64,000 nt of DNA, taken from NCBI RefSeq assembly GCF_004087915.1, contig NZ_CP035108.1, positions 2,294,001-2,358,000 on the forward strand. The letters run 5' to 3'. Of the stretch, positions 23,270-33,841 are shown one piece after another (position 1 is the first letter of the stretch; each line of letters begins with the position of its first letter). The DNA is from Geovibrio thiophilus (GTDB lineage: Bacteria > Chrysiogenota > Deferribacteres > Deferribacterales > Geovibrionaceae). The notes under the pieces were generated by a model. It was not told the origin of the DNA and ran no database searches. It was given only the letters and a program-made list of their open reading frames with translations. The translations under genes and the position numbers were made by a program.

Positions 23270-24187
23270 TTAAAATGCCTTAACCAGAGTCAGCCAGAAT
23301 GCGTCGCCTTCCTTGGTATCCTTACCGCCGAATTCTTTATAATATTTCAGCCTGAGCTGCCCCTTGATCTGCGGTATCGCCATATCTATTTCGGGACCTG
23401 CCGCATAAATGCGGTCGAGATCATCCGATGTTCTGTCACTGCCCTTATCGTCAGTGATCTGCCAGTGAGCATACCCTGATATACCTACATCAAAGAGTCC
23501 GACTGATCTGCCGAAGCCCCATTCTACCAGCACATCATCACCGTATGTCAGATCAAGAACCCTGTTTTCAAAATGCTTTTCATATCTGGCAAGCACTGAC
23601 AGGCTCCAAAGCCTTTCAGAGTCAAAGAACAGTGTTGTTCCGGCTGTGGCGGTTATGTTGTAGTGGTCGCCGCCTATGGACGCCGCGTCGCTCTCATCAT
23701 ATTCACCTGTGGGAACAAGCATGGACAGGCTTATTGTCACATCCTGCCGAGGTCTGTGCCACGCCAGCACCAAAGGCTCCACAGTTATATCACCCACGCC
23801 GGTGCTTTCCGCATCCACACCTGCGGCATCGATTTTCAGATCAACATTCACTACGGGAATAATGATGTTCATACCGTAGTCTGCACCGAAAAACTTTTTG
23901 TTTGTCACATAGACAAAACGGTGCGCCATGGCGTAGGAGTTTACATCGAAGCCTATTTTTTGTTCATCACCGTTTTTGTCCCTCATAGTGTCGGATGAGT
24001 AGAGCTGATTATAAAGCACATAGTAAAAACCCGGTCCCGGAAACGATGCAGCCTTTATCCCCTCGGAACCCAGAGGGTAATCCACCGCCTGCGCGTCGGG
24101 AATGCCGATGGCGATAAGAAAAGTTAAAATGCAGAGAGCAGTTCTAATATTATTAAATGTTTTCTGAAAACTAAAATAAAAATTCAT
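23270..24187 (-). CDS. Phenol_MetA_deg-like outer-membrane beta-barrel protein
   Basis: A 305-residue protein with a long signal peptide ending near DAQA-VDY, then alternating aromatic/polar strands typical of an outer-membrane barrel, closing in ...TLVKAF with C-terminal Phe. It belongs by appearance to the 'MetA-pathway of phenol degradation' barrel family, whose function is undefined but probably transport. It shares YPLGSEGIKA, GMNIIIP, RYEKHFEN and GYAHWQITDDKGSD with the protein at 57676-58560. GGAGG precedes the ATG, which overlaps the chaperone gene by 17 bp. As last gene of the reductase operon it could let substrate into the periplasm; that is inference. Confidence 0.8.
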   Translation of the reverse strand: MNFYFSFQKTFNNIRTALCILTFLIAIGIPDAQAVDYPLGSEGIKAASFPGPGFYYVLYNQLYSSDTMRDKNGDEQKIGFDVNSYAMAHRFVYVTNKKFFGADYGMNIIIPVVNVDLKIDAAGVDAESTGVGDITVEPLVLAWHRPRQDVTISLSMLVPTGEYDESDAASIGGDHYNITATAGTTLFFDSERLWSLSVLARYEKHFENRVLDLTYGDDVLVEWGFGRSVGLFDVGISGYAHWQITDDKGSDRTSDDLDRIYAAGPEIDMAIPQIKGQLRLKYYKEFGGKDTKEGDAFWLTLVKAF

Positions 24188-24842
24188 CAGAGCCTCCTTT
24201 GGCAGTCACTGTGAGGGATGTCAGTTTCAGCACCCCTCTGTAAAAATCTGTTGCCGCATGTTTTTCAGCCTCTTCACAAAACATTCCCACCCAGTTTGCC
24301 GGATGGTTTTCAATAAAGCTGTCGGACATATCCTGATATTTGGAATATTCCTCAAAATTTTCCGTTTCAAGAGCTGTAAGACGGAGTGAAGCAAGATGTG
24401 CAGCATAGGCAAGTTCGGTGCCTATATAATCGTGCCTGTTATTGATCTCCATATACTCCGCGAAGCCGTTACACTGGTACTCCTGAGCCAGTACGCTGAT
24501 CAGTTTCAGGCTGCCTGAGTTCACATAAAGCTGCTCATATGGAGCTTTAGGACCGTAATCAGGCGCTACACCACGGAAAAGCTTTGTCCAGTCACGCTTA
24601 AGTTCGATTACCAGCTCATCACTACGGACAGCCTCACACGCATACTTGGTAATCATTGAAACCGCTGAGCTTATTCCGTTCATCGGAACAGAGCCGGAAG
24701 TAAGGTTCATCAGTGCTTCAATAAAATTTCTGTCAGGGTTGTAATTATAAAAAGCAGCCAGCAGTCTGAATGTCGCACGATCTATCTCTGCGTTGGATAA
24801 AGCTTCTTCTTTGCAGAATATCATATCGTTGTTTCCAGTCAT
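24171..24842 (-). CDS. TorD/DmsD-type chaperone for the molybdoenzyme
   Basis: A 223-residue cytoplasmic helical protein of the TorD/NarJ-like family, which bind the Tat signal peptide of a molybdoenzyme and keep it export-competent until cofactor insertion. The family pattern is visible as DWTKLFRGV-PDYGPKAPYEQLYV and AEYMEINNRHDYIGTELAYAAHL. The start at 24842 (MTGNND) is chosen for the upstream GGGGTG; the longer open frame would begin inside the intercistronic hairpin. It follows the Fe-S subunit gene in the operon. Confidence 0.87.
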   Translation of the reverse strand: MTGNNDMIFCKEEALSNAEIDRATFRLLAAFYNYNPDRNFIEALMNLTSGSVPMNGISSAVSMITKYACEAVRSDELVIELKRDWTKLFRGVAPDYGPKAPYEQLYVNSGSLKLISVLAQEYQCNGFAEYMEINNRHDYIGTELAYAAHLASLRLTALETENFEEYSKYQDMSDSFIENHPANWVGMFCEEAEKHAATDFYRGVLKLTSLTVTAKGGSDEFLF

Positions 24843-24863
24843 TATTGCACCCCGGTATAGGCT

Positions 24864-24889
24864 CCGCTCCGCATGCTTCTGCGGAGCGG
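24864..24889 (-). promoter_or_regulatory. Intercistronic 10-bp stem hairpin without T-tail
   Basis: CCGCTCCGCA and TGCGGAGCGG form a perfect stem with a 6-base loop in the 60-bp gap between the Fe-S subunit and chaperone genes. With no T-run in the direction of transcription it is unlikely to be a terminator; it may stabilise the upstream mRNA and set the lower dose of chaperone. Confidence 0.55.
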
Positions 24890-24902
24890 GCATCAGATTA
24901 GT

Positions 24903-25508
24903 TTATTCGATGTAGAATACACTGGGCTTAGTGCCCTCTTCCGGTCGGTATGGTTTCGGCTTGTACTGCCTGAATATTTTTGAAACCTCACTTTTAGGGT
25001 CATCGAGATCGCCGAAAATTCTGGCAATAGCGGGGCAGGTCTCCACACACGCCGGCGGCAGACCTTTTTCTCTTCTCGGTGCGCAGAAAGTACACTTATC
25101 CACAGTTCCGCTCACATGCTCACCGCTTCTGAGCTTTTCATAGGCATCCTGCCCCTTCATGCCCCAGTAGGTGGGAGCATCTTCGGAGTTGAAAAACCTT
25201 GCATCGTAAGGACAAGCCTCCATGCACTGCTTGCACCCGATGCACTCTGAAGCGGTAACCTGCACAGTGCCGTCAGCAAGTTTTTTGGATGCCTTTGTTG
25301 GGCACACCTCAACACACGGCGCATCATCACAGTGGTTGCAGATCAGGGGCATGTACCCTATTTTGCTGTTGGGGAATTTGCCGTGCTCCTCCGTGAGCGT
25401 TTTTGTATAAAATGTCCCGGGAGGCGTGGCGTTTGCCTGTTTGCAGGCAACTGTGCACCCGTTGCATCCGTAGCATCTTCTTTTATCCATTATCATTACG
25501 AGTTTCAT
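24903..25508 (-). CDS. Four-cluster ferredoxin-like electron-transfer subunit of the molybdoenzyme
   Basis: A 201-residue Fe-S protein of the DmsB/PsrB/ArrB type. Four Cys clusters are visible: CYGCNGCTVACKQ, CNHCDDAPCVEVCP, CIGCKQCMEACPYDA and CTFCAPRREKGLPPACVETCP, enough for four [4Fe-4S] centres. It has no signal peptide, so it should ride with the Tat-exported catalytic subunit into the periplasm. The gene lies 9 bp after the catalytic gene. No membrane anchor (NrfD/DmsC) follows, so electrons probably arrive from a separate quinol dehydrogenase or cytochrome. Confidence 0.92.
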   Translation of the reverse strand: MKLVMIMDKRRCYGCNGCTVACKQANATPPGTFYTKTLTEEHGKFPNSKIGYMPLICNHCDDAPCVEVCPTKASKKLADGTVQVTASECIGCKQCMEACPYDARFFNSEDAPTYWGMKGQDAYEKLRSGEHVSGTVDKCTFCAPRREKGLPPACVETCPAIARIFGDLDDPKSEVSKIFRQYKPKPYRPEEGTKPSVFYIE

Positions 25509-25517
25509 ACCTGACTC

Positions 25518-28244
25518 CTAACTCTGTTTATAGATTCTGACGGGAACAGTATTCGTTACGCCCATTGCAACAGGGTCGAAATCGGAGATTTTGTTTCCTG
25601 TAAGCTGATTGTAATGCAGGTATTTATCTCCGCTGTGTCCTGCGGATTTAATAAGCCTGCCCAGACTGCCCGCTATGCCCACTACACCGGGCTGCAAAAT
25701 CTCAGTCACATAAAGCCTGCCGGAAACCTTACCGTATTCGGATTCAACAACAACAGTGTCTCCGGTAGCCAGACCTTTTTCCTTTGCTGTTTCGGTATTG
25801 AGCGAAACTGTCCCGTAGAACGGATCAAAAGCTTCCCCTGTTTCAGTGAGATAAGGGAGCTGATCCACAGCGCCTATCCTCATAGGGGAATACTGCGTCT
25901 TGTATGTTATGGATACAAGATCGTATCTGTCGCCTTTTTTCACCGAGTTAACTTTGTTAGGGCGCCATGTTATTGTCGGCTCGTAATAGGAAAGATGATC
26001 TTCCATATCCCAGTCGGGCAGATATATTTTGTCTCTGTGGGCGGTAAAGTATTTGCGGAGTGTATCACCGCTGGCTTTAAGCCTTGAGAAATAGAACGGA
26101 AACCGCATCTCGCCTTTTTTATAGCGTCCGGTATTGTAACAGCTTCCCTGAGCTTCTCTCTGGATAATCAGCCCCGATTCGTTCAGGCTGTCCATGGTGT
26201 GTTCACTGCCGAAATATTTCCGAACGCCTCTGTCCCAGACCTCTCTTACGGAATATCTTTTATCAAGGTCGAAGTAGTCCTTTTCATCAAGAAAAGCGAT
26301 CGAGATTTCACCGATCATTACGCCCATTTTATTGATCGCATCGTTGAAATTCGAGATGATGCCCATACGCTCGGATATATCCATAATTATGTCCTGAGAC
26401 TGGCGGGAATCGTAGACTGCGGGAAACGGATCTCTGTACATAAGCATCTTAAGACCCATGGTATCTTTCTGATATACATCAAAAGCCGATTCATAGCAGT
26501 TAACTGACTCTTTCTCAAGAATCGCATGAGAGGGCAGCAGTATATCCGACATGTGAGCCATTTCGTCATAGTTGTAAGCCAGTGTTGCGGAAAAGGGGAT
26601 TCTGGATATTGATTCGGCAACCATGTAAGGCTCGGTTGTGCTTGAAATCGGGTTGCCGCCTACTGTAAGCAGAGCATCTATCTCATACTCAAGACCGTAT
26701 TTGTGCGGATCCATAGCTACCTGATACGCAAGAGCCGGTATTGAGTGCCTGTGCGGGAAAAATTCGTAGAGATCTATGTGCTGCGGCGGCCACACAGGTT
26801 CGTTGCATATAGCTTCCATCTTAGGAGCCACCACGCCGTCTGCGTCCGGATCAAGGAACGGTCCTCTGGCGCAGGCGACATTGCCTCCGGGCACATCAAG
26901 AGAACCCACAAGCATGTTTACAACTTTGCTCATGAGGTCTCCGCCTACACCGTCTTTCTGCCCCATTGTGCCGCGCTGGCAGATAACTGAAGATGTTCGG
27001 AGAGGGAATTTTTTGATTTTTCCGCTGTTGTCTTTCAGTTCGACTGTTTCGCCGATACTGGCGTTTTCAACGAACTCTTTTGCTATCTGACGGATCCTTT
27101 CAGCAGGCACGGTTGTTATTTTCTCCGCCCATTCCGCCGTATTCGTTTTGAGGCTTTCTTTGACAAGGAGAAAGCTTGCGGTAAGCTGTTCGCCGCCGAC
27201 TTTGACCCGCGCCTCAAGATCAGGTGTTTTCAGGGTTTTATCATCAAATGACTTAACTTTTTTATCCGCAAGATCATATATCTGCGGCTTGCCGTCTCTG
27301 CCTCTGAAATAATCTCCATGTGAGTTAATGAGGTAGGGTGAGTTTGTCCACCAGCGGAGAGACTCGGCATCATATTTTTTGATCTCATACATGATGGTAT
27401 GCGCTATTGCCATCAGGAAAGGCAGGTCTGTTCCGGGCTTGATCGGCACCCAGTCGCCTTTTCCGGCTTCTGCGGAACATCTGGGGTCGACAACGACAAA
27501 TTTTGTTTTCTTACCGACAATAGCGTCGACAGCGCCTCTTGCGCCACCGTTCGCAGCGCCAATGGACATTCCAGTATGTCTGCCCATGGTTATAACATAT
27601 TTGGCGTATGTAAGGTCGGAGACCGTCACGGGGAATATCCCCTGCACAAGATCTGCCGCATAATGCAGAGCGCAGAGAGTGCCGTTGCTTTTAAGATAGT
27701 TGGGTGTACCGTAAGCTGCGGCAAAATAGAAAAGATATGTACAGAAATAGTTCATATCCCCGAATCCCACCTGAAAGATAAATCTTCTGGGGTCTTTATC
27801 CCTGACTTCCTTGAGCTTTTTGGCGGTGGTTCCGAGAGCCTCGTCCCAAGAGATCTCCACCCATTTAGGATCCTCGTTGATCCCTTTTTTAGGGTTGGTT
27901 CTCTTCATGGGCGCTTTTACCCTGTAAGGATTATACAGGTTTTGGATCAATGCCTGCCCTCTTGCGCACATTGTTCCTTTGCCGTTTTCGGACTTAGGGT
28001 TTCCCTTGAGCTCGACAACAACTCCGTTTTCAACACGGTACATATTCGCACAGTCGCCGCGCATGCACATGCGGCAGTGGCTGAAATGCCAACCGTCTTT
28101 GCCGTGCGGGGCTGTTTTGATCGCCGTGTGCTCCTTTGCTTCTGTTCTGCCGGTATAGCCAGTTCCGATAACAGCAGCAGTGCCAAGCACTCCCATAGTC
28201 TTCAGAACTGTTCTCCGGCTGACGTTCACTAATGACTTCGCCAT
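25518..28244 (-). CDS. Tat-exported molybdopterin oxidoreductase, catalytic subunit (Psr/Phs/Arr-like)
   Basis: A 908-residue DMSO-reductase-family enzyme with N-terminal Tat signal (NVSRRTVLKTMGVLG), acting in the periplasm. An N-proximal [4Fe-4S] site is formed by CRMCMRGDC and the later GTMCARGQ. Molybdopterin-binding regions follow (VITMGRHTGMSIGAANGG, FVVVDPRCS, GGNPISSTTEP), and the C-terminal dinucleotide-binding domain includes DTVVVESEYGKVSGR. A Cys in SNGTLCALHYA is placed where many relatives carry the Mo ligand. The overall type fits polysulfide/thiosulfate, arsenate or related oxyanion reductases, but the substrate cannot be fixed from sequence. The lack of a membrane subunit resembles ArrAB. 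The operon continues with the Fe-S subunit, chaperone and outer-membrane protein. Confidence 0.9.
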   Translation of the reverse strand: MAKSLVNVSRRTVLKTMGVLGTAAVIGTGYTGRTEAKEHTAIKTAPHGKDGWHFSHCRMCMRGDCANMYRVENGVVVELKGNPKSENGKGTMCARGQALIQNLYNPYRVKAPMKRTNPKKGINEDPKWVEISWDEALGTTAKKLKEVRDKDPRRFIFQVGFGDMNYFCTYLFYFAAAYGTPNYLKSNGTLCALHYAADLVQGIFPVTVSDLTYAKYVITMGRHTGMSIGAANGGARGAVDAIVGKKTKFVVVDPRCSAEAGKGDWVPIKPGTDLPFLMAIAHTIMYEIKKYDAESLRWWTNSPYLINSHGDYFRGRDGKPQIYDLADKKVKSFDDKTLKTPDLEARVKVGGEQLTASFLLVKESLKTNTAEWAEKITTVPAERIRQIAKEFVENASIGETVELKDNSGKIKKFPLRTSSVICQRGTMGQKDGVGGDLMSKVVNMLVGSLDVPGGNVACARGPFLDPDADGVVAPKMEAICNEPVWPPQHIDLYEFFPHRHSIPALAYQVAMDPHKYGLEYEIDALLTVGGNPISSTTEPYMVAESISRIPFSATLAYNYDEMAHMSDILLPSHAILEKESVNCYESAFDVYQKDTMGLKMLMYRDPFPAVYDSRQSQDIIMDISERMGIISNFNDAINKMGVMIGEISIAFLDEKDYFDLDKRYSVREVWDRGVRKYFGSEHTMDSLNESGLIIQREAQGSCYNTGRYKKGEMRFPFYFSRLKASGDTLRKYFTAHRDKIYLPDWDMEDHLSYYEPTITWRPNKVNSVKKGDRYDLVSITYKTQYSPMRIGAVDQLPYLTETGEAFDPFYGTVSLNTETAKEKGLATGDTVVVESEYGKVSGRLYVTEILQPGVVGIAGSLGRLIKSAGHSGDKYLHYNQLTGNKISDFDPVAMGVTNTVPVRIYKQS

Positions 28245-28328
28245 AGTTTTCCTCCGTTTAAGAACATCAAAAATTAAGCACTAATCAACTCTTGAAAAAA
28301 GCTTACAATTCTTTAACGTGTCAACAAA

Positions 28329-28360
28329 GGACCAGAAGATTTAATTAGGCTGGGACCAGA
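28329..28360. promoter_or_regulatory. Direct repeats GGACCAGA in the divergent promoter region
   Basis: GGACCAGA occurs at 28329-28336 and 28353-28360, 24 bp apart in the same orientation, between the molybdoenzyme operon and the MocR-type gene. MocR regulators (GabR, PdxR) are known to bind direct repeats of this kind, and GGACCAG-like words occur in PdxR sites. It is a probable operator for the neighbouring regulator. Confidence 0.6.
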
Positions 28361-28413: not shown

Positions 28414-29826
28414 ATGCTTCAGGGAATAGTTTTTGATAAAAACTCCGGCACTCCTCTATACATACAGTTAGCGAAAGCTATACGCAGCCGGATAGAAAAC
28501 GGAGAATTTAAAAGAGGAGAAAAACTTCCCAGCAAACGAAAAATGATGTCGGTTCTGGATATAGGCAAAAATACCATATCCGCCGCAATGGATATGCTGG
28601 TACAGGAAGGCATGGTAAAAGCCTATCAGAAATCAGGATATTTTGTGGCAGAGCAGTGGGATATAAATATCCCCGACTGGCAGGCGTATATCAAAAGAGC
28701 GAAACACAAGCCCGGCAACAACGAACTCCGCTTCTGGGCTGACGCAGGCGGACTCACCGACTTCGGACTGAGCAGCGACTTCGATATATCACCGTTCATA
28801 GTGGAAGCTTTTAACAACGCACTGGTGCGCTCGTACGATCTGACTTGTAAAAACGATTACTCGGTGTACGGATACCTTCCCCTGAGAGAATCACTGATCA
28901 AGCACCTGAAGCTTTCCGGAATCAACGCGGAGATCGACAATATTCTCATCTGTCCCGGCAGCATTCAGGTTCTCTACCCTGTTTATGAATCATTAATGAC
29001 CAACGGTTCAAATTTTCTCCATGAAAAAAGCAATCTGATTGTAGCCATTTCCGACATCCACTCTTTGGGGATGAACATGATACCGATTGAGGCTGATCAG
29101 CACGGACTTTCCAGCGTGGAGCTTGAAAAAGCGATATTGAAATATAAGCACCCCATTCTCCACGTTGACCCCACGGATCAGGCACCCACCGGCATAGTGA
29201 TCAGCAAAAAGCGCAAAGCGGAAATAATGAAAATCATCAATAAGTACAAACTGCCTGTCGTGGAAATAGAGCATCTTCAGGACGCATGGTACAACAAGCC
29301 CTTTCCGCCGTCCTTTAAATCAATGGACACCTTCGGAAACGTCATTTATATCGGAATGCTCATAAGAAGCTGCCCGTTCGACCTGCAAATGTCATGGATT
29401 GTGGCAGACAAATGTATCATCAGGCATTTAAGCAACGTAATGATTCAGGATGGAATAAAAGCCAATTTCTTCATGCAGATAGCAGCGGATGAAATGTTCA
29501 GAAGCGGAATGTATTACAAAATGATGCACGCCGTGCGGTGCTTCATCAAAAAACGGCGGGAAACAGCTCTGGCTTTCTGTGAAAAACACCTTAAAGACAT
29601 AGGCATATGGAATGAGAAAAACTGCGGATTCCACTTCTGGCTCGAATTTCCCGGAACGAACACAAAGGCTCTGTTTAAAAATAATTATTATAAAACATTT
29701 CATCCCGGTCACTTCTTCGACAGGCAGGACACCACCCATATTCTGCTCTGTCCCGCATCAATTAAGGAAGACGAGATAGAAACATCCATTATCGAAATAG
29801 CCGGGCTGATAAGGAAAAGCGCATGA
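28414..29826 (+). CDS. MocR-type GntR regulator with degenerate aminotransferase domain
   Basis: A 470-residue fusion of a GntR winged helix (GTPLYIQLAKAIRSRIENGE, KLPSKRKMM) and a fold-type I aminotransferase-like domain (roughly 100-470). Canonical MocR proteins carry the PLP Schiff-base Lys in a SFSKTLxPGLRLGY-like motif. Here the aligned stretch reads YIGMLIRSCPFDLQMSWIV, with Arg318 at the Lys position and Gln in place of the phosphate-contacting Arg. The usual IEDDYDSEF region reads VEIEHLQDAWYNKPF, also altered. It should not form the PLP aldimine and may sense another ligand. The start at 28414 has AGAGGT upstream. Divergent from the molybdoenzyme operon, with a direct-repeat operator between, it is the likely regulator. 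Confidence 0.85.
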   Translation: MLQGIVFDKNSGTPLYIQLAKAIRSRIENGEFKRGEKLPSKRKMMSVLDIGKNTISAAMDMLVQEGMVKAYQKSGYFVAEQWDINIPDWQAYIKRAKHKPGNNELRFWADAGGLTDFGLSSDFDISPFIVEAFNNALVRSYDLTCKNDYSVYGYLPLRESLIKHLKLSGINAEIDNILICPGSIQVLYPVYESLMTNGSNFLHEKSNLIVAISDIHSLGMNMIPIEADQHGLSSVELEKAILKYKHPILHVDPTDQAPTGIVISKKRKAEIMKIINKYKLPVVEIEHLQDAWYNKPFPPSFKSMDTFGNVIYIGMLIRSCPFDLQMSWIVADKCIIRHLSNVMIQDGIKANFFMQIAADEMFRSGMYYKMMHAVRCFIKKRRETALAFCEKHLKDIGIWNEKNCGFHFWLEFPGTNTKALFKNNYYKTFHPGHFFDRQDTTHILLCPASIKEDEIETSIIEIAGLIRKSA

Positions 29827-33284: not shown

Positions 33285-33298
33285 ATTTCACCTTAATT

Positions 33299-33575
33299 GA
33301 CAGTCAGAATCTGTACATCCTGTCAGATTCTGACACACGCTCGCGGTTTGCAAAGCAAACCTTCGCCGCACGGCGCATGTCTGTACTACCAAGGCAAAAG
33401 CCACTTCCTGTGGTTTTGCCTCACACGCTCGCGGGCGGATAAACCGCCCTTCGCTGCGCACGGCGCATGTCTGTACTACCAAGGCAAAAGCCACTTCCTG
33501 TGGTTTTGCCTCACACGCTCGCGGGCGGATAAACCGCCCTTCGCTGCGCACGGCGCAGTTCCATCCATGGAACTG
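33299..33575. repeat. Palindromic repeat cluster with two tandem 90-bp units
   Basis: First comes GTCAGAATCTG/CAGATTCTGAC around TACATCCTGT, linker ACACGCTCGCG, GGTTTGC-AAA-GCAAACC and CTTCGCCGCACGGCG. Then GGCGCATGTCTG starts at 33372 and again at 33462, two nearly identical 90-bp units with CAAAAGCCAC/GTGGTTTTG around TTCCT, the linker, GGGCGG-ATAAA-CCGCCC and CCTTCGCTGCGCACGGCG. A final AGTTCCAT-CC-ATGGAACT hairpin closes the cluster. Linkers match those at 2.5 and 7.2 kb; most arms are new. Open frames here are artefacts of the tandem units. Confidence 0.9.
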
Positions 33576-33585
33576 AACATAAAAA

Positions 33586-33660
33586 GCGTCATTGCGAACA
33601 CGAAGGGTGAGGCAATCTCAAAGAAGACTGCCGTGTCTCTCCCGCTCCTCGCAGTGACGT
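33586..33660. repeat. Small inverted-repeat element (MITE-like)
   Basis: GCGTCATTGCGA at 33586-33597 faces TCGCAGTGACGT at 33649-33660, imperfect inverted ends of a 75-bp stretch that also contains GAGGCAATCTC. The word family matches the GTCATTGCGAGGAG...GCAATCTC intergenic repeats known in many bacteria and the fragment at 7116-7155. No gene or ribosome binding site is seen in this stretch or in 33661-33840. Confidence 0.65.
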
Positions 33661-33841
33661 AATACAACGCCATTCCGGGCATCCGCTAAGAATCCCGCAA
33701 AGCTGCCGTGCTGCTGTTCCGGCATCTCTCCCATGACCGCGCAAATAAAATAAAATATGTAAAATAACTATACTACCATTAATCTATATTTCAAAGGGGG
33801 AAACTGGATTTTTACAAAACTTGAAAGAAAGGAAAAATAAA

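Follow-up and report, generated by a model that had tools for sequence, protein, structure and literature searches.

The regulator gene described here encodes a MocR-type protein in which the residues of the PLP site have been lost together. It belongs to a clade of such proteins, which we call pseudo-MocRs, nearly all of which are encoded beside a reductase gene. In the reading that we favour as probable, these proteins form a lineage-restricted MocR branch in which the aminotransferase-like domain, without covalent PLP, serves dimerisation and the sensing of another ligand, and the regulator controls the neighbouring reductase operon. The gene lies in a 64,000-nt stretch of Geovibrio thiophilus DNA (contig NZ_CP035108.1, positions 2,294,001 to 2,358,000), here called the window; its features are collected in Table 1.

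Table 1. Features of the regulator locus, in window coordinates.
Feature	Position	Strand	Basis
Outer-membrane protein (Phenol_MetA_deg), last gene of the operon	23270..24187	-	PF13557, E=5e-45
TorD-like molybdoenzyme chaperone	24171..24893	-	PF02613
4Fe-4S electron-transfer subunit	24903..25508	-	Profile searches
Divergent TAT-exported molybdopterin oxidoreductase catalytic subunit, 908 aa, ArrA/PsrA/PhsA neighbourhood	25518..28244	-	PF00384, PF01568, PF04879; PDB matches
Tandem candidate operator: two GGACCAGA half-sites (other strand TCTGGTCC), 24 bp apart	28328..28360	+	Promoter comparison, pattern scans
MocR-type regulator CDS, 470 aa, PLP-site residues lost	28414..29826	+	Profile and PDB matches, residue table; Foldseek top match GabR
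GntR winged helix-turn-helix domain, about residues 14-80	28453..28653	+	PF00392, E=4e-13
Aminotransferase fold-type-I-like domain, about residues 120-465	28771..29808	+	AlphaFold model, match to GabR C-terminal domain
Ile285-Glu286-His287, replacing GabR Asp279-Asp280-Tyr281 (I285 codon 29266-29268, H287 codon 29272-29274)	29266..29274	+	HMMER alignment, residue table
Arg318 codon (AGA), Schiff-base Lys position	29365..29367	+	HMMER alignment, residue table
Gln325 codon, phosphate-binding Arg position	29386..29388	+	HMMER alignment, residue table
Leu444 codon, substrate-carboxylate Arg position	29743..29745	+	Residue table

Re-reading of the ORF and its translation showed that the first-pass annotation had the frame, its coordinates and its motifs right; the gene starts with ATG, with AGAGG upstream. 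Full-length phmmer matches among PDB entries were to GabR and PdxR. An AlphaFold model (pLDDT 73.6, with low confidence in loops around residues 206-217, 254-262 and 293-306) returned GabR as the first Foldseek match and PdxR among the top matches, and the effector (C-terminal) domain of GabR matched it with a target-normalised TM of about 0.8 and an rmsd of 3.3-3.7. The predicted structure is consistent with the earlier view that the aminotransferase fold has been kept. Despite these full-length matches, the protein scores below every curated MocR cut-off (206.8 bits against 320 for the NCBIfam PdxR model NF052282, and 114.6 against 600 for the GabR model NF052285), and a Pfam search reported no match to Aminotran_1_2. 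The protein has the N-terminal GntR-type winged helix and the C-terminal fold-type-I aminotransferase domain of a MocR, and lacks the Schiff-base Lys, the pyridine-nitrogen Asp and the phosphate Arg.

In a HMMER alignment to GabR (4n0b), K312 corresponds to R318 and R319 to Q325, and the IEDDY motif of GabR reads VEIEH, which leaves Ile285 in place of the pyridine Asp and His287 in place of the stacking Tyr. The replacements of the Lys and the phosphate Arg and the altered IEDD region, previously noted from the letters alone, were all confirmed by this alignment. A further change can be added to that list: the substrate-carboxylate Arg, present in 32 of 37 canonical MocRs, appears as Leu444 in the residue table, and Arg is not among the common states at this position in the 38 pseudo-MocRs. 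GabR of Bacillus subtilis and PdxR of Bacillus clausii, of the MocR subfamily of GntR regulators, resemble the regulator in domain order, fold and direct-repeat operators. It differs from them in having other residues at the positions of the PLP lysine, Asp279, Tyr281, the phosphate Arg and the carboxylate Arg. Asp279 and Lys312 are reported to be conserved across all MocR clusters (PMC6677901).

To place these losses, 38 pseudo-MocRs, chosen by sequence and independently of gene context, were tabulated with 37 search matches that are canonical at the PLP site. In this 75-protein alignment, Asp279 is missing from all 38 pseudo-MocRs and Lys312 from 31, while all 37 canonical proteins keep both K and R. 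The Lys position holds R in 14 pseudo-MocRs, K in 7, N in 6, G in 4, L in 2, and V, Q, Y, D and A once each; the phosphate-Arg position is mostly G or Q. In the tree, for which 37 of the 38 were long enough, the pseudo-MocRs form a single clade (UFBoot 100, SH-aLRT 99.8) with three switches between K and not-K by parsimony. D, K and R are all present in the nearest canonical tree row (L108) and, as judged by motifs, in a protein of Peribacillus (P0002); because canonical proteins just outside the clade still have the PLP residues, the site was lost. Arg at position 318 is by itself not the key feature, since five of the seven Lys-bearing members, one of them a paralogue in the same genome, are close homologues that still lack the Asp, the Tyr, the phosphate Arg and the carboxylate Arg.

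The lysine of these seven members also favours a reading in which the protein still holds PLP, non-covalently or through another Lys, and is a PLP or amine sensor of the conventional kind; the retention of scaffold residues G153, G231, P258, G260 and E284 in pseudo-MocRs points the same way. We consider this quite improbable, as four of the PLP-site residues (Asp, Tyr, phosphate Arg and carboxylate Arg) have gone together. When we looked for an alternative aldimine lysine, no lysine column was universal; the only frequent ones in the aminotransferase domain, K302 and K391, occur widely among canonical MocRs as well, and seven members carry Phe in place of K302. In EnuR, the K302H replacement abolishes PLP binding and induction, and the PLP-free protein is a constitutive repressor (PMC8739950). 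Aldimine might occasionally form at the Lys of the seven Lys-bearing members. For the regulator itself, the joint disappearance of PLP-site residues, here and across the whole clade, makes PLP independence very likely, and supports the first-pass view that PLP chemistry is improbable.

All members of the clade come from Deferribacterota, save one from a Deltaproteobacteria metagenome-assembled genome (L094). Searches covered 51 genomes of the phylum, 385 relatives mostly from other phyla, and, by short patterns, 84,980 species genomes. No clear pseudo-MocR other than L094 was seen beyond Deferribacterota in the 84,980-genome pattern scan, among the 385 relatives, or, above weaker matches of about 245-252 bits, in 149 genomes of the class of L094. 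The weaker matches from outside Deferribacterota among the 385 relatives are canonical at the PLP site. Plasmid matches were about 26% identical; the best of them, at 27% identity, is Peribacillus P0002, which was translated and is canonical. Both P0002 and L108 (genome G376) are exporter-linked canonical MocRs. The motifs IEDDVYRDLW and NVLYLGSLSKTL of P0002 are locally similar to those of the regulator, but P0002 and L108 differ from it in retaining D, K and R. The adjoining exporter is LysE-like (by eye) or DMT, and no reductases are found there. One Deferribacterota genome, G016, has about ten matches to the family profile, and a further pseudo-MocR-like copy in it consists of two short ORFs and is apparently broken (L050:11399-12621). 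The pseudo-MocR of G040 is cut into two ORFs by an in-frame TAG (L115:4332-5753).

The regulator and the molybdopterin oxidoreductase gene are divergent, with 170 bp between them. The PDB entries closest to the molybdoenzyme, ArrA (6cz7) and a thiosulfate/polysulfide-type reductase (2vpw), match its N-terminal part only, and its NCBIfam scores fall below the cutoffs for PhsA (205 bits against 694) and ArrA (157 against 1600). Between 23270 and 28244 of the window, the operon has no evident gene for an NrfD/PsrC-type membrane anchor.

The first-pass annotation had tied the regulator to this operon by position, and the arrangement is indeed conserved. Every complete close homologue, like the paralogue of the same genome, has a divergent molybdoenzyme operon beside it; the orthologue keeps the pair, as do five homologues with 47-49% identity and L045 with 50%. 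Among these pairs is a second copy in the genome, made up of the Lys-bearing paralogue (genome positions 930246-931637) and a molybdoenzyme 59% identical to the first. More remote pseudo-MocRs adjoin other molybdoenzymes or FAD/flavocytochrome reductases. With reductases (molybdopterin or FAD/flavocytochrome) called by phmmer at 1e-15, 35 of the 38 pseudo-MocRs have one within 2 kb, compared with 0/37 canonical MocRs, a contrast whose Fisher values overstate significance, as orthologues are not independent. Restricting the comparison to loci with full 6-kb flanks gave 18/19 against 0/28, and at a 500-bp cut-off a reductase was near about 30 pseudo-MocRs (30 computed, 31 by eye). Of the three without a reductase, L046 and L110 lie at contig ends; the third, L052, has neighbours that are tatC- and moaA-like by eye.

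Other neighbours also recur at these loci. L039, L040, L042, L044, L046, L047 and L048 adjoin an MFS transporter whose N-terminal segment, 'NQFKVPP(M/I)M'-like, is conserved; this transporter is a candidate importer of the ligand or the acceptor; none was seen within a few kb of the regulator in the window. By eye, a cysteine-desulfurase-like gene (FDNAATTPPF) and YeeE/YedE- and rhodanese-like genes adjoin L040, L042, L044 and L045, hinting at sulfur chemistry.

The GGACCAGA direct repeats between the two divergent genes, at 28329-28336 and 28353-28360, are real and are likely to be the operator of the regulator. Half-sites of the form RRGNCHAG occur 24 bp apart in all eight complete orthologous divergent promoters, and the degenerate 24-bp-spaced pattern matches once in the window, against 0.14 expected. 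In the 3.0-Mb genome, RRGNCHAG-N16-RRGNCHAG has two matches, both in regulator-molybdoenzyme promoters, compared with 12 for the reversed control pattern. Matches at the loci were also found in G001, G004, G005 and G010, and relatives without the gene have 0-4 matches. At L043, and by eye also at L039 and L040, one half-site pair faces each gene; at L042 and L044 the strict pattern was matched on the regulator side only. Read toward the controlled gene, the half-site core is CTGG, and CTGG-N20-CTGG lies within 400 bp upstream of 7/38 pseudo-MocR genes (including L058 and L094, the latter from another phylum), compared with 0/37 canonical genes. In the flavocytochrome branch (family f6), a ACTGGTATCATTACCA...ACTGG block is conserved with a spacing of 23 bp. 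An upstream scan of the pseudo-MocR genes did not find CTGG tandem sites in most of the more divergent branches. As judged from these promoters, conservation of the predicted operator is limited to the gene's own branch (with L094) and most of the flavocytochrome branch, with L058 and L115 as single sites.

A direct-repeat operator is a MocR trait, and the conserved tandem half-sites give the regulator a putative one. TauR of Rhodobacter retains PLP and controls taurine use. Its direct repeats have a CTGGAC core (CTGGACYTAA, as quoted in PMC5320631), so that it shares CTGG in a direct-repeat half-site with the regulator, though the sites diverge beyond CTGG. MocR operators commonly consist of direct boxes, either alone or together with an inverted box (PMC5320631).

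The loss of motif residues might be read as decay of a pseudogene or as a sequencing oddity. This reading, which we rate as almost nil, is refuted by ORFs that are intact in all close orthologues, by an operator and synteny conserved over several genera, and by selection on the gene. Against its 82%-identical orthologue (L041), dN is 0.116 and dS is saturated; the gene is under purifying selection. A one-off mutation is ruled out by this selection and by the sharing of the losses across the whole clade.

We propose that the aminotransferase-like domain would hold no covalent PLP and would work in dimerisation and in sensing another ligand. A regulator dimer would sit on the pair of direct CTGG-type half-sites that lie 24 bp from each other in the divergent promoter, and would switch the molybdoenzyme operon and, where relatives have two operators, its own gene too. 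From the anatomy of the locus, it is very likely that the regulator binds 28328-28360 and controls the divergent operon. We lean weakly toward activation rather than repression because, by eye, an operator copy in relatives immediately precedes the promoter-like sequence of each gene; the choice is a guess, since a promoter scan recognised no sigma-70 promoter.

The ligand could plausibly be the electron acceptor of the reductase or a related anion. Sensing of the reductase substrate, as the first-pass annotation had suggested, is helped by the fact that branches differ both in their reductase (several kinds of molybdoenzyme, flavocytochromes) and in the residues of the old PLP site. Counting against it, the molybdoenzyme is TAT-exported and the regulator cytoplasmic, so the substrate would need to enter the cell. 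In the residue table, His287 is invariant in the gene's ten-member sub-branch, and position 318 is basic (Arg or Lys) in 18/18 members of this sub-branch, the flavocytochrome branch and L058. Because a basic residue occupies 318 in every member of the gene's own sub-branch, we speculate that the ligand may be anionic, for example an oxyanion or a carboxylate.

Alternatively, the aminotransferase domain might be a dimerisation scaffold only, in a ligand-free regulator governed by its own abundance or by another regulator. PLP-free EnuR still dimerises (PMC8739950), and the second operators in relatives look autoregulatory. We nevertheless think this unlikely. Between the 82%-identical orthologues the aminotransferase domain (identity 0.82) is better conserved than the winged helix (0.72; linker 1.00). 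In addition, the old-site residues vary by branch along with reductase type, while His287 and the basic residue at 318 stay constant in the ten-member branch. Extending the ligand-sensing reading to the whole phylum is more tentative: in Deferribacterota the aminotransferase fold may have become a PLP-free, evolvable sensor, giving one-component regulators (up to about ten per genome) each tuned to the acceptor of the neighbouring reductase, with the old PLP site as the acceptor pocket.

Published surveys treat MocRs as PLP proteins, and respiratory control by a PLP-type MocR is already known: MpaR of Pseudomonas aeruginosa controls an orphan oxidase subunit gene, ccoN4, and requires K314 for its activity (PMC10790758). 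The regulator resembles MpaR in its tie to respiration and differs from it in that MpaR retains K314. In the open-access literature, our searches turned up neither a PLP-less MocR clade nor MocRs that control molybdoenzymes or flavocytochromes. A whole PLP-less clade tied to respiratory reductases would demonstrate that sensing by the aminotransferase fold does not require its cofactor. The shared losses and the reductase neighbours suggest reuse of an old enzyme fold in the control, and perhaps the sensing, of alternative electron acceptors. With regulator, operator and reductase in one locus, such a clade would also offer ready handles for identifying what many orphan molybdoenzymes and flavocytochromes, among them those of gut-associated Deferribacterota, use as substrates.

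Elsewhere in the window, the stretch 33297-33662, where no gene is evident, has a direct repeat in its translation, with HGACLYYQGKSHFLWFCLTRSRADKPPFAA occurring twice.
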